Of a stretch of DNA of 45,130 nucleotides, positions 22,656 to 28,011 are shown piece by piece. The stretch comes from Nitrospira sp. GTDB taxonomy: Bacteria > Nitrospirota > Nitrospiria > Nitrospirales > Nitrospiraceae. Below the pieces are notes generated by a model that searched no databases, had not been told where the DNA came from, and worked only from the letters and a program-made list of their open reading frames with translations. Every line of letters begins with the position of its first letter. Positions within the stretch are counted from its first letter, which is position 1. Location of the stretch: NCBI GenBank assembly GCA_024330925.1, contig JANDJK010000012.1:1-45130 (forward strand). Direction: 5' to 3'. The translations under genes and the position numbers were made by a program.

Positions 22656-24155
22656 TCAGAGTCCTGATGGCGGTGACGATGACGGATCATCATCCTGCAG
22701 TTCACTCTCGAATGGTTGGGTTGCCGGTTCCCGGCCGACTTCATTCACTCCAAACGTGGCTCCGTTGTCGGTCTTACCAATTCCCAGACTATCCATGCGG
22801 TATTTCAGCATGCGTCGGCTGATACCGAGTAAATGGGCAGCGCGGGTCTGGACATAATTGGTGCGTTTGAGCGCGTCCAAAATAATGTCCCGTTCAAACT
22901 CCATGACTGCTTTTTCGAGCGACAAACGCCCGGCCATGATCTCGTCATGGAGTGACGAGGAACGGAGATCCCCTTTGAGCTGGTTGGGGAGGTGTTCGGG
23001 GGTGATGCAGGATGCATGCTGAGACCAGATGAGAGCCTGTTCTACGACATTTTCCAGCTCGCGGACATTGCCGGGCCATGAATATCGCGAAAGCATTTCC
23101 AATGCATCTTTTGAAAACTCGATCGGCGGACGCCGTTCTTCTTCCAATCGCTTTGCAAGGAAATGTTTGGCGAGCAAGATAATATCTTCACCCCGCTCCC
23201 TGAGAGGAGGAAGATACAGAGTAATCACGTGGATGCGATAATACAAGTCTTCGCGGAATTGTCCTTTTCGAACCAACTCCTCTAGGTTTTTATTGGTCGC
23301 TGCCACAATGCGGACGTCTACCTTGATGGGTTGAACGCCACCAACTCTGGTAAATTCCCGTTCCTGGAGGACCCGCAATAATTTGGTCTGGGTGACCAAA
23401 CTCAATTCACCGATCTCATCAAGAAATAGGGTGCCGGTATGGGCAAGCTCGAATTGCCCGGTTCGGCGGGTGGTCGCATCGGTAAAGGCGCCTTTTTCAT
23501 GACCAAATAATTCGCTCTCAATCAATGTTTCGGGTAGGGCTGCACAATTGATGGCCACAAAAGGCCGGTCTTTTCTTGAGCTGTTGTAATGGAGTGCCCT
23601 TGCCACCAGCTCTTTCCCGGTTCCGCTTTCCCCTATGATGAGAACGGTGCTGCGACTGTCAGCGACCTGCTCAATTTTGGCATAGATGTCCTGCATGACC
23701 TGGCTTTTACCAATAAGATTGTGAAAGCCATAGCGTTGCGCCACCTGACTGCGAAGTTGCTTGACTTCGCGTTCCAACGCGGAGGTATTGAGCACACGGT
23801 TCACGGTGAGACGCAGCTCTTCGATATCAAAGGGTTTTGATAAGTAGTCCGCCGCTCCCAGCTTCATGGCATCGACGGCGGTCTTGATAGATTTGGTTCC
23901 GGTCAACATGATGACGGGAACGGTCTTGCTTTCGGCCTTGATGGTCTGAAGGACGGACAGACCGTCGGTACCTGGTAGGATCACATCGAGCAGGACGAGA
24001 TCAGGGCCTTCGCTTCGGAAGATGTGGAGCCCTTCCTGCGCATCTGCTGCTTGAAGAACGTCGTATGTCGACTCAAGAACCGATTTGAGCGACGCACGAA
24101 CCCGTGGCTCATCGTCGATTAAGAGGACTCGCTTTTTGGGAGCACCGCTTTCCAT
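22656..24155 (-). CDS. NtrC-family sigma-54-dependent response regulator
   Basis: A 499-residue activator. Receiver 1-120 with acidic pair D14/D15 in LLIDDEP and phospho-acceptor D57. AAA+ domain about 145-385 with Walker A GESGTGKE (175-182), the sigma-54 contact loop as GAFTDA (222-227) rather than GAFTGA, Walker B FLDEIG, and the R-fingers around REDLYYRI. A C-terminal Fis-type helix-turn-helix sits around TRAAHLLGISRRMLKYRM, followed by an unusual acidic tail. GAFTDA is a known variant. It is 18 bases downstream of the histidine kinase stop, so the two are surely partners. No -24/-12 promoter was found nearby, so the regulon is not visible. Confidence 0.95.
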   Translation of the reverse strand: MESGAPKKRVLLIDDEPRVRASLKSVLESTYDVLQAADAQEGLHIFRSEGPDLVLLDVILPGTDGLSVLQTIKAESKTVPVIMLTGTKSIKTAVDAMKLGAADYLSKPFDIEELRLTVNRVLNTSALEREVKQLRSQVAQRYGFHNLIGKSQVMQDIYAKIEQVADSRSTVLIIGESGTGKELVARALHYNSSRKDRPFVAINCAALPETLIESELFGHEKGAFTDATTRRTGQFELAHTGTLFLDEIGELSLVTQTKLLRVLQEREFTRVGGVQPIKVDVRIVAATNKNLEELVRKGQFREDLYYRIHVITLYLPPLRERGEDIILLAKHFLAKRLEEERRPPIEFSKDALEMLSRYSWPGNVRELENVVEQALIWSQHASCITPEHLPNQLKGDLRSSSLHDEIMAGRLSLEKAVMEFERDIILDALKRTNYVQTRAAHLLGISRRMLKYRMDSLGIGKTDNGATFGVNEVGREPATQPFESELQDDDPSSSPPSGL

Positions 24156-24173
24156 GGGTTCTCTTCCTTGCTA

Positions 24174-25436
24174 TCAACTTACTGCGGGAAACGTAATGCA
24201 AAACGTGGTGCCAATACCTTCCTCGCTGTGAACATGAATCGTCCCTCCGTGTTCTTGAATGATTTGGTGAGCCATAAACAATCCCAGCCCCGCTCCTTCA
24301 TGATCGCGACTTGTGTGTTTGGTTGTGTAAAAAGGATCGAAGATGTGTTCCAGGTCTGCTGGGGAAATGCCGCGACCCGTGTCTTGGATGTCAATCCGCA
24401 CATTTCGCGGGGAGGATTCTCCGATAGAGGTGCGGATGCGCAAGATGCCACCTTGGCTGTTCATCGCGTCAAGTGAATTGGAGAGCACCTGAACGAAAGC
24501 GTGCTTGACGTGCTGTCGGTCGAGCAAGACAGTGGGAAGGTCAGGTGTCAACTGTTGTTCAATGACGATCCCGCGGCTACGAGCATGCGAATCAAGCAGG
24601 TACAGGCAGGAGGTGATAATGTCATTGACATCTTCTTCAGCCAATTGAGGCTCCAGGAAGCGGCTGTAGTCCAAAATTTCAGTGATTAATCGTTCAATAC
24701 GATAGATATCGCTAAGAACTACCTGACTAAACTCTTGGAGAAACGCGGCATCATCCTTTCGTTCTGGAGCAAGCTGAATAAAGGTTTTGATCGAGGTTAG
24801 GGGATTTCTGATTTGGTGAGCAAATCCACTGGCCAGTGTCTCAAGGGATCGTAATCGTTCGGTTCGCCGATCTGACGGTTGCAGGGAGATACGACTCTCC
24901 CTATTCATCAGGACGGTCAGGGTGTTTGCTCCTCCCTGAGCAATGATTTTGAGCCAGATGGTGGGCAGGGAAGGATGGTTGTGGACATTGTGATCTGCTT
25001 GAAGAAGAGCGAAAGCAATCATTCGATCGCGGCTGATCAAGGGGATCGCCCAATGAGCCCGCATTGGCAATGAAGACGGTCTGGTAATGGCAAGGCTTCC
25101 ATCATCTCGGACAGTCCAATCAACAATGTCCCGGTCATGGGTCAGTTGATGAACAATGGGATGAGACAATGAGAGCAGAGGGGGCATAAAAGGCTGGTGA
25201 TCGGCTTCACTGGTTGCCAACGACAAGACCCGATACTGGCCGGCGGCATCTTGGTCCTCTACATAGAGGAACCCGCCGCGGCATGACGTCCAGATCATGA
25301 ATTCTTTCAAGATGCGCTCTGCGACCACAGAGAGAGCGGTCTGCCGTCCAATGTCTTGCAAAAAATTGTGGACATAATCGAGAAATTTCCAGATGGCTTG
25401 GTCGGCATCGTTGTTTAGAGCACGATTGGCACTCAT
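24174..25436 (-). CDS. Sensor histidine kinase with GAF-type input
   Basis: A 420-residue soluble kinase with no transmembrane helix, so it senses a cytoplasmic signal. Residues about 20-190 look like a GAF domain (TALSVVAERILKEF, WAIPLISRDRMIAFALLQAD). The H box is GFAHQIRNPLTSIKTF. The ATP-binding region has QVLSNSLDAM (N box), DIQDTGRGISPADLEHIFDPFYTTK (G1 and F boxes) and GAGLGLFMAHQI (G2 box). It resembles NtrB-type partners. It begins the three-gene signalling cluster; 550 bases of gene-free DNA precede it, the likely place for its promoter. Confidence 0.92.
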   Translation of the reverse strand: MSANRALNNDADQAIWKFLDYVHNFLQDIGRQTALSVVAERILKEFMIWTSCRGGFLYVEDQDAAGQYRVLSLATSEADHQPFMPPLLSLSHPIVHQLTHDRDIVDWTVRDDGSLAITRPSSLPMRAHWAIPLISRDRMIAFALLQADHNVHNHPSLPTIWLKIIAQGGANTLTVLMNRESRISLQPSDRRTERLRSLETLASGFAHQIRNPLTSIKTFIQLAPERKDDAAFLQEFSQVVLSDIYRIERLITEILDYSRFLEPQLAEEDVNDIITSCLYLLDSHARSRGIVIEQQLTPDLPTVLLDRQHVKHAFVQVLSNSLDAMNSQGGILRIRTSIGESSPRNVRIDIQDTGRGISPADLEHIFDPFYTTKHTSRDHEGAGLGLFMAHQIIQEHGGTIHVHSEEGIGTTFCITFPAVS

Positions 25437-25988: not shown

Positions 25989-26999
25989 TCACTGAACGGC
26001 AGCTGTTGTGTGTTGGTCCGGGCAAGCTCCTCGCGTCATGTAAAGGAGGTAATTACCCATGCCATACTGAGGTTTAGTCTTTTCCAATGGATGGTGGTGA
26101 ACCATGACCATTTCATAGTCATCGACAGTGTTCACCGGAAAGCCATGGCTGTCGTGATAAATTTGATGAGGGAGAAACTCCCGGAGGGTTCCGTCTCGTT
26201 CAACATCGGGGACAGTTCGGAGTAAGGTCTGTTTTTTGGTTTTATTTTCCAGAGCGATCATGAGCAGTTCGTCATGACCGTGAGGATAGGCGTACTTCAC
26301 GCACCCGTCGATGCTGAACTTGAGAGGGGCGGTGTGAACTTGCACCCCCGGCTTGATTTCGATTCCTTCATCTGTTTGATCGGGCGGACGGTCACCAAAC
26401 TTCGTGAAGCATACGATGTTCACGCCGACCTGATAGATATCCAACTCCTGAATGGGCTGGCCTTTCGGTGCAAAATACATGGTAAAGGTAGCGACAACAT
26501 TTTTGGTTGGAGGAGCGCCGTGGTAAAAAGCAACGACGGTCATCAGTCGGTCGTCCTTGGCGAGTTTGACGCCGTAGCCGTCAGGGAAGTGAGTCTCGGC
26601 CATTTCCAGGCCGGCCCCTCCAAAGAAGAGCGGCTCGCCAGGACACGTCAAGCTTGGTTTGCTATTGTTGATCATTAAGATGTGGTGAAGGTAGTTCTTG
26701 GGGAGTGCTTTGCCATCCACCGTGGTCAAGGCTGATTTAAACCCGATCAAATACTTGTCCTCCGGCAATTGAAAGTGAAACCGCGGAATGGAGTCACCCA
26801 TGTCACCTTCATTGTGGCCGGTGGGAAGATCAAGAGGGCCGAAGGTCAGGGTCGCAGAGTTTTCGCCGTAAGTAATTCTTGAGGGGACTTGTTTCTTCAG
26901 GGTGGGAACGACATGGTGGTCGTGTTGGTGTATTCCATCCGCATAGGCGGAAGAACTCATCAAGAAGACCACTGGTAAAGTGATTAGGACTCTTCGCAT
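25989..26999 (-). CDS. Secreted His-rich protein, SURNod19/PHM-like
   Basis: Family not firmly recognised. The 336-residue product has a clear signal peptide (about 4-20, SSSAYADG) followed by a His-rich start (HQHDHH). Further conserved-looking His clusters are YLHHILM, FYHGAPP, YPHGHDELL, YHDSHGF and VHHHPLE. YLHH-I-L with a later H-x-H recalls copper sites of peptidylglycine monooxygenase-like and SURNod19-type folds, so a periplasmic copper-binding or copper-dependent role is a guess. Four to six Cys are spread through the mature protein (TCPGEP, NIVCFTK, GCVKYAYP, GACPDQ) and may form disulfides. ATG 26999 follows GGGAGG; the upstream in-frame GTG lies within that site. Confidence 0.6.
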   Translation of the reverse strand: MRRVLITLPVVFLMSSSAYADGIHQHDHHVVPTLKKQVPSRITYGENSATLTFGPLDLPTGHNEGDMGDSIPRFHFQLPEDKYLIGFKSALTTVDGKALPKNYLHHILMINNSKPSLTCPGEPLFFGGAGLEMAETHFPDGYGVKLAKDDRLMTVVAFYHGAPPTKNVVATFTMYFAPKGQPIQELDIYQVGVNIVCFTKFGDRPPDQTDEGIEIKPGVQVHTAPLKFSIDGCVKYAYPHGHDELLMIALENKTKKQTLLRTVPDVERDGTLREFLPHQIYHDSHGFPVNTVDDYEMVMVHHHPLEKTKPQYGMGNYLLYMTRGACPDQHTTAAVQ

Positions 27000-27055
27000 A
27001 TAACCTCCCACACAGACTTAAAGGATGACCGTGTTTTGAACCGGACTCCGTGGAA

Positions 27056-27111: not shown

Positions 27112-28011
27112 TCATTGGAGGGGGCCCCGTGCAGAGCCTGGAGGCGTCACCCGTTTCCACTCGTACGTTCCCCCATGTTCCCGAGGAGGGATCCCCGTAT
27201 GTTTTCCGACACGGGTATACCACCAGATCCCTTTCGCCTCCATGCCATCTTCGGAGAGGAGAAGCTCAAATCCACCCTCGCGATCATTGCCCGGTTGATG
27301 CCAGGTCCCTTGCCACAGGCGATCGGCAAATTTCGTTGTGACGAAGCGCCCTCCGTGTTGGGTATAGGGGCCGTTTCCATTTTTATCCAGTGTGGCCCTG
27401 TACCGTTTATTGTCTTCAACCTCGAGAATCTCCCATTCGCCGCTTAGGTCCGGTATGGCTGAGGCTGAGGGATTGCTGATTAGGATCTGTTGGGCTGGTG
27501 CTGCAGGCGATGCTGCGACCGGATGGGTCATCTGGGCGGAACGGAACGACTCATGAAAGTTCAACAACACCCATTGTCCATTTCGCCGCTCTAGGACGCC
27601 AGTCTCTCGAAGAGGCAATACGGTTCTGGTTTGCTGCTCCCCTGTGCCCACGTACCGGATGTAGTCCAATTCCATGGAAAACCACGCAATATCTCCCTTA
27701 TTCCAAACATTAAGTTCACGGATCGGAATTTCCAATTTTTCGACGTTCCCGAATTCTTCCTGCATCTCCCGCTCAAATTCGGGCCATCCGACGTATTTTC
27801 GTCCTCCAACGGAATAACTGGTAATGTCGGCATCGTGTGCCATGAGGCGAGAAATGGTATCCAAATCCTTTTCGGCGTTGGCTTGCACCAATCGGCGGAT
27901 GACGGCTTCCGGATTGTCCGGCTCAGCCGCTCTTGCCACGATAGGCGATGCATCCGACGCAACGCTCAGTAGAGCGGATAGGCAGCACACCCAGAGATCA
28001 AAACGATGCAT
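27112..28011 (-). CDS. Exported SnoaL/NTF2-like protein with extra C-terminal domain
   Basis: A 299-residue exported protein: signal peptide (about 5-28, ending near VARAAEP), then a SnoaL/DUF4440-like domain (EAVIRRLVQANAEKDLDTIS, VGWPEFEREM, DIAWFSMELDYI, ETGVLERRNGQWVLLNFHES; about 30-150), then a linker and a second beta-rich domain (LSGEWEILEVEDNKRYRATL, FADRLWQGTWHQPGNDREGG, WWYTRVG) of unknown family. NTF2-like domains bind small ligands or act as enzymes; function is not deducible here. ATG 28011 has AGGGAG upstream. It lies upstream of the His-rich protein on the same strand with 112 bases between them, possibly a linked pair. Confidence 0.7.
   Translation of the reverse strand: MHRFDLWVCCLSALLSVASDASPIVARAAEPDNPEAVIRRLVQANAEKDLDTISRLMAHDADITSYSVGGRKYVGWPEFEREMQEEFGNVEKLEIPIRELNVWNKGDIAWFSMELDYIRYVGTGEQQTRTVLPLRETGVLERRNGQWVLLNFHESFRSAQMTHPVAASPAAPAQQILISNPSASAIPDLSGEWEILEVEDNKRYRATLDKNGNGPYTQHGGRFVTTKFADRLWQGTWHQPGNDREGGFELLLSEDGMEAKGIWWYTRVGKHTGIPPREHGGTYEWKRVTPPGSARGPLQ

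Follow-up and report, generated by a model that had tools for sequence, protein, structure and literature searches.

The 336-amino-acid protein encoded on the minus strand of the DNA analyzed (45,130 nucleotides of Nitrospira sp.; referred to as the window) is predicted, with high confidence, to adopt the two-domain fold of peptidylglycine alpha-hydroxylating monooxygenase (PHM) and dopamine beta-hydroxylase (DBH), with which animals produce peptide hormones and noradrenaline. Computation established the gene, the PHM-type two-domain fold of its modeled product, and invariant His-His (HH), His-X-His (HxH), and Met residues at the PHM ligand positions; copper is likely to occupy the two predicted PHM-type sites. 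The protein is probably an exported periplasmic type-2 dicopper protein, and most likely an O2-dependent monooxygenase that acts on a substrate other than a C-terminal-glycine peptide. To our knowledge, PHM and DBH have been studied almost wholly in animals.

The features of the gene and its product are summarized in Table 1. A Sec signal peptide was recognized by eye rather than by a prediction program; its A-x-A site ends at A20, a residue identical throughout 24 aligned sequences. The protein contained 20 His (6.0%), 4 Cys, and 12 Met residues; its His content ranked second among the 30 ORFs of at least 200 amino acids in the window (median, 2.3%), a mechanical list in which some frames may not be genes. 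The sequence-only reading had described a signal peptide and an HQHDHH head, both of which were present (the former by eye), together with six further His clusters and spaced Cys pairs, which were not found as such. A pattern scan, in which a group was defined as two His with three or fewer residues between them, detected four groups beyond the head, HH (105), HGH (240), HQIYH (278), and HHH (301), plus single His, and the four Cys (119, 197, 233, and 326) were single residues far apart in the sequence. Promoter and terminator scans gave results at chance level. The genome from which the window derives (90.6% complete) contained one match to the protein.

Table 1. Positions of the PHM-fold gene, its predicted functional residues, and the upstream partner gene in the window
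Feature	Position	Strand	Basis
PHM/DBH-fold exported protein gene (ORF of 336 aa; ATG at 26999, TGA at 25989)	25989..26999	-	ORF, fold search, homologues
GGGAGG, ribosome-binding-site-like, four bases 5' of ATG	27004..27009	-	sequence
Signal peptide, residues 1-20, A-x-A end	26940..26999	-	read by eye
HQHDHH head at the N-terminus (residues 24-29), may be an accessory metal site	26913..26930	-	H26 96/99, H28 93/99
H62	26814..26816	-	conservation, 98/99
H105-H106, predicted CuH ligands (PHM H107-H108, DBH H262-H263)	26682..26687	-	99/99; range-constrained alignment 6/6 settings
H160, candidate third CuH ligand (PHM H172)	26520..26522	-	98/99; domain-1 register F158 2/3, H160 1/3
H240-G-H242, predicted CuM ligands (PHM H242/H244, DBH H412/H414)	26274..26282	-	99/99; PHM 6/6, DBH 2/3 settings
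Q279, may correspond to PHM Q272	26163..26165	-	99/99
H302 and H303, additional conserved His	26091..26096	-	conservation, 99/99 and 88/99
M314, predicted CuM Met ligand (PHM M314, DBH M487)	26058..26060	-	99/99; structural range ends
C119, likely disulfide	26643..26645	-	invariant
C197, likely disulfide	26409..26411	-	invariant
C233, may pair with C326 like PHM C227-C334	26301..26303	-	invariant
C326	26022..26024	-	invariant
Upstream partner gene (299 aa)	27112..28011	-	SnoaL_3 match, model, adjacency

The AlphaFold2 model, built with 24 aligned sequences, was of moderate confidence: pTM 0.75, mean pLDDT 73, and 68 residues under 50. In a Foldseek search against the PDB, PHM occupied rows 1-26 (best E, 1.0e-8) and DBH row 27, after which E climbed to 1.7e-4 with unrelated capsid/jelly-roll proteins. 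A comparison with the PHM fold, which the earlier reading had proposed as a check, was borne out by VIA-align: Z was 17.1 for PHM (6ala_C; 231 aligned, rmsd 2.9) and 16.5 for DBH (4zel_A; 238 aligned, rmsd 3.1), and the next fold was a PNGase (7zgn_A) at 9.8. The modeled protein therefore has the two-domain catalytic core that characterizes the PHM/DBH type-2 dicopper monooxygenases.

At the sequence level, neither hmmscan against Pfam nor a search of NCBIfam assigned the protein to a family with E allowed up to 1. SURNod19 (PF07712), which the earlier reading had suggested as a fold for comparison, was likewise not matched by Pfam at that threshold. When six divergent relatives were searched against Pfam at E up to 10, one weak unrelated match (E 0.23) was obtained. 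Neither Cu2_monooxygen (PF01082) nor Cu2_monoox_C (PF03712) recognized the protein: a whole-genome search with PF01082 gave nothing at E up to 10, and PF03712 matched 0/148 Nitrospirota genomes in a search whose controls were silent too. Among PDB sequences, phmmer and a profile search gave nothing credible (best E of 0.71 and 0.73, respectively), and hhalign/profile comparison with rat PHM remained at background level. Homology to PHM/DBH was not established from the sequence by itself; the fold carries most of the weight. We did not file the protein in the PHM/DBH Pfam family because the sequence models were silent and the PHM substrate residues were replaced (see below); the best reading is a known fold, PHM/DBH-like in outline, carried by a new family of sequences. 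The open-access literature searched listed no report of a Nitrospira protein resembling PHM, and such an absence is weak evidence.

Conservation was analyzed in 99 distinct sequences, derived from 151 placements of 290-399 amino acids (shorter and longer ones were left out); they were mostly close relatives, with identities to the window protein under 63% in 13 of the 99 and of 37% in the least alike. H105, H106, C119, C197, C233, H240, H242, Q279, H302, M314, Y317, Y320, and C326 were identical in all of them, and further conserved residues included H160, H62, and N316 (each in 98), H26 (96), H28 (93), and H303 (88). Among 79 homologues, H75, H137, H222, H282, H285, and H330 were variable. 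We know of no PHM equivalent of H302 or H303. C233 and C326, located on either side of the domain-2 core, were likened to C227 and C334 of PHM, which we take to form a disulfide pair. The most divergent copy (L143:5856-6884, 37%) lacked H26, H28, and H62, and had Asp at position 160 and Thr at 316, but retained HH, HxH, Q279, H302, M314, and the Cys residues. The HQHDHH head was rejected as the main copper site because it was lost in divergent copies that still keep HH, HxH, and Met. The canonical form of an ATCUN motif was not found either, the first His being the fourth residue after cleavage at A20 in most relatives (by eye). The new periplasmic copper protein proposed in the sequence-only reading was supported by the PHM/DBH fold and the conserved ligand residues, with two corrections: the PHM-type ligands are not supplied by the head or by several of the His clusters, and the presence of copper is a prediction. 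A fold without clustered His ligands, named in that reading as evidence against it, was not seen, HH, HxH, and Met being conserved at the PHM ligand positions.

In two papers, the CuH ligands of PHM are given as H107, H108, and H172 (PMC6123673), H242 and H244 are placed at a copper site and M314I is described as a CuM-site mutation (PMC6123673, PMC4846438), and the ligands of DBH are H262, H263, and H333, and H412, H414, and M487 (PMC4846438). These DBH numbers agreed with chain positions at a constant offset of 39. The two coppers of PHM are about 11 Å apart (PMC6123673, PMC4846438). The motifs were placed by profile alignment with structural ranges imposed, using 10 shuffles per setting. 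H107/H108 of PHM fell on H105/H106, and H242/H244 on H240/H242, in 6/6 range-constrained settings each; H412/H414 of DBH fell on H240/H242 in 2/3. Only the range-constrained alignment placed HH and HxH, whereas unconstrained alignment mostly misplaced the motifs (PHM HH on H105/H106 in 1/5 settings, and DBH HxH on H240/H242 in 1/4) and was not taken as support. Scores were above the shuffle mean by 1.6 to 3.1 sd for domain 1, 1.8 to 2.0 for the full length, and 2.4 to 3.3 for domain 2 of DBH, and that for domain 2 of PHM was below the mean of the shuffles.

The assignment of M314 to PHM M314 and DBH M487 was derived from the ends of the structural ranges and would hold if the last strand (315-323) contains no gap: all 25 PHM rows ended at 324-324 or 323-323, and DBH at 323-496. 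In the range-constrained alignment, PHM M314 fell on M314 in 1/3 domain-2 settings and on M297 in 2/3; full-length settings gave M297 in 3/3, and DBH M487 was left unaligned in 3/3 range-constrained settings. The CuM set of HxH plus Met is represented by H240/H242/M314, of which the Met depends on the structural range ends. As for the CuH set, HH was present (H105/H106), and the third His was in register with F158 or H160, the latter being the Asp position of the divergent copy described above: PHM H172 fell on F158 in 2/3 and H160 in 1/3 domain-1 settings, and, at full length, on F158 twice and C197 once.

Overall, the protein and rat PHM (6ala, 1opm, 1phm) shared an all-beta core of two domains, spanning residues 42-324, as well as N316, secretion, Cys residues able to form disulfides, and the HH, HxH, and Met of the ligand positions. 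On the other hand, identity in the structural alignment was about 12%, and sequence profiles did not connect the two; the Nitrospira protein had four Cys versus ten at the PHM positions checked, an extra invariant His (H302), and the N-terminal His head, and its third CuH His is a candidate. The residues of PHM that we take to be the peptide-carboxylate anchors, R240, N316, and Y318, corresponded to Y238 (by counting from the HxH register), N316, and L318 (both by the last-strand register). Peptide amidation is unlikely because R240 and Y318 are replaced. Human DBH (4zel) shared the catalytic core fold and the equivalents of H262/H263, H412/H414, and M487, but was only 10% identical, and 336 amino acids leave no room for its DOMON or dimerisation domain.

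A contig scan with six short peptides, which picks up close relatives only, yielded 51 loci, including one of N. moscoviensis, with titles of Nitrospira or Nitrospiraceae except for one Nitrosospira. This Nitrosospira-titled locus (L016, isolate CMX) is perhaps a misnomer. In the phylum Nitrospirota, matches were found in 33/148 genomes with the protein as a query and in 80/295 with a 24-row profile, the latter comprising 77/79 genomes of the window's family, whose named relatives are Nitrospiraceae, and 3/216 other Nitrospirota; the family count of 79 relies on a kinship-ordered listing, in which 195 match-less genomes are unlisted. The three matches beyond the family were from the same order (G125 and G284) and the same class (G157), and the two family genomes with no match (G161 and G288) were small (1.8 and 2.2 Mb). 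The exported PHM-fold protein was thus near-universal, occurring in nearly all sampled genomes of the Nitrospira family. Neither a relative of the protein nor PHM was found on plasmids. The window's genome encoded AMO-family (PF02461) proteins outside the window (G000:C120:523-1230 and G000:C130:3-563), so its organism is probably a comammox-type Nitrospira. A tie to ammonia oxidation was rejected: in the 148-genome sample, 32/32 genomes of the family carried the PHM-fold gene and 13/32 had an AMO match, and the gene was also present in 19/19 of those with no such match, which argues against a role tied to this process. TIGR03479 matched 141/148 genomes and is thus not specific for NXR (nitrite oxidoreductase).

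The only close and near-constant neighbor was the upstream partner gene, which encodes a protein with a signal-like N-terminus, an NTF2/SnoaL-like domain (about 30-158; SnoaL_3 in Pfam, 1e-15), and, at its C-terminus, an all-beta domain (about 188-287). In a search with its model (mean pLDDT 83.5, pTM 0.59), NTF2-like proteins were retrieved over about residues 29-165, with a best Z of 17.6. Of 148 locus-level matches with at least 500 nt upstream, a redundant set with several loci from the same genomes, 137 had the partner match on the same strand, its end lying 25 to about 125 nt upstream of the PHM-fold gene; the PHM-fold copies of the 11 exceptions were 37 to 62% identical. Small molecules are the common ligands or substrates of NTF2/SnoaL domains, which suggests a small-molecule role for the partner. 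Downstream, 552 bp off, was a sensor kinase gene, relatives of which were present in 10 of the 13 loci listed; together with a gene for a sigma-54 response regulator it occupied 22656-25436 of the window on the same strand. An additional gene of about 1,400 codons lay in between in 6 of the 13 loci listed, and its copy in L010 encoded PAS, PilZ, hydrolase, and methyltransferase domains.

Second-clade copies were carried by L153 and L154, which were sisters at 100/99 support. In both (L153:6608-13385 and L154:3952-8379), the PHM-fold copy was followed by genes for a 2OG-Fe(II) oxygenase and then a short protein. The oxygenase of L153 matched the HalD model PF23169 at 2e-12 and was 65% identical to its L154 counterpart, and the short proteins were 42% identical and had no family match. 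Two FGE/SUMF1-type genes were located upstream in L154, and SMBP-like, chlorite dismutase, Rieske oxygenase, and CopD-like genes downstream in L153. In G250 (L143:2446-11802), two tandem, highly divergent copies were adjoined by genes for two TonB-dependent receptors and one DyP-type peroxidase. No model was above the cut-off for these receptors among the best 25 of 30 and the best 25 of 31 matches.

In the proposed mechanism, Sec would carry the protein out of the cytoplasm, and copper would be bound at H105/H106, probably with H160, as CuH (the electron relay), and at H240/H242/M314 as CuM (the O2 site). A periplasmic reductant would load the electrons. A small substrate would sit between the domains, where O2 bound at CuM may attack one of its C-H or N-H bonds; the NTF2/SnoaL-like partner may bind or further convert the substrate or product.

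A catalytic oxygenase is predicted somewhat in preference to a carrier. The latter, a non-catalytic protein for copper transfer, scavenging, or storage on the PHM fold, in which HH, HxH/Met, and the His head hold copper for copper enzymes or importers, is possible but unlikely. It would account for the conserved His beyond the PHM ligands (H26, H28, H62, H302, and H303), the position of the head near the predicted mature N-terminus, the TonB-dependent receptors adjoining the tandem copies in G250, and ammonia monooxygenase, a copper enzyme, in the window's genome. However, the invariant core is a catalytic-type pair of sites, whereas the head varies; the gene also occurs in the 19 family genomes with no AMO match; for one of the G250 receptors, a copper-receptor model was far below siderophore and B12 models among the matches listed; and the fold of the partner is of the NTF2/SnoaL type that handles small molecules.

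Within the oxygenase reading, a more specific function is conceivable but improbable: action on nitrogen oxides or an N-containing nitrification metabolite (e.g. NO or nitrite at CuM), together with the NTF2/SnoaL-like partner, conserved across nitrite oxidisers and comammox organisms. By their PDB titles, 3mib and 3mlk are PHM crystals with bound nitrite, and CuH of PHM is reported to take no such ligand (PMC6123673, PMC4846438), from which we infer that nitrite is bound at CuM.

A copper-free protein with two jelly-roll domains, the likeness of which to PHM would be architectural only, is also improbable. PNGase F and bacterial PNGases, which we take not to be copper enzymes, share two jelly-roll domains, PNGase-type and similar hydrolases were the next matches (Z of 9.8 to 8.2), and no sequence family was matched; however, this match was much weaker, with a clear gap to the PHM/DBH chains (12.9 to 17.1), and HH, HxH, and Met were invariant at the ligand positions. 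A PHM proper that amidates the C termini of peptides is hardly credible in spite of the same fold, CuM ligand set, and N316, given the replaced anchors, a length of 336 amino acids that leaves no room for a PAL (lyase) domain, and no PF03712 match in the Nitrospirota genomes (with silent controls).

The PHM-fold protein was previously unannotated, with no sequence link to the known PHM/DBH family, and now has a concrete set of residues for testing. If its assignment as a type-2 dicopper monooxygenase is correct, the environmentally central Nitrospira family would possess a copper enzyme that has yet to be explored.
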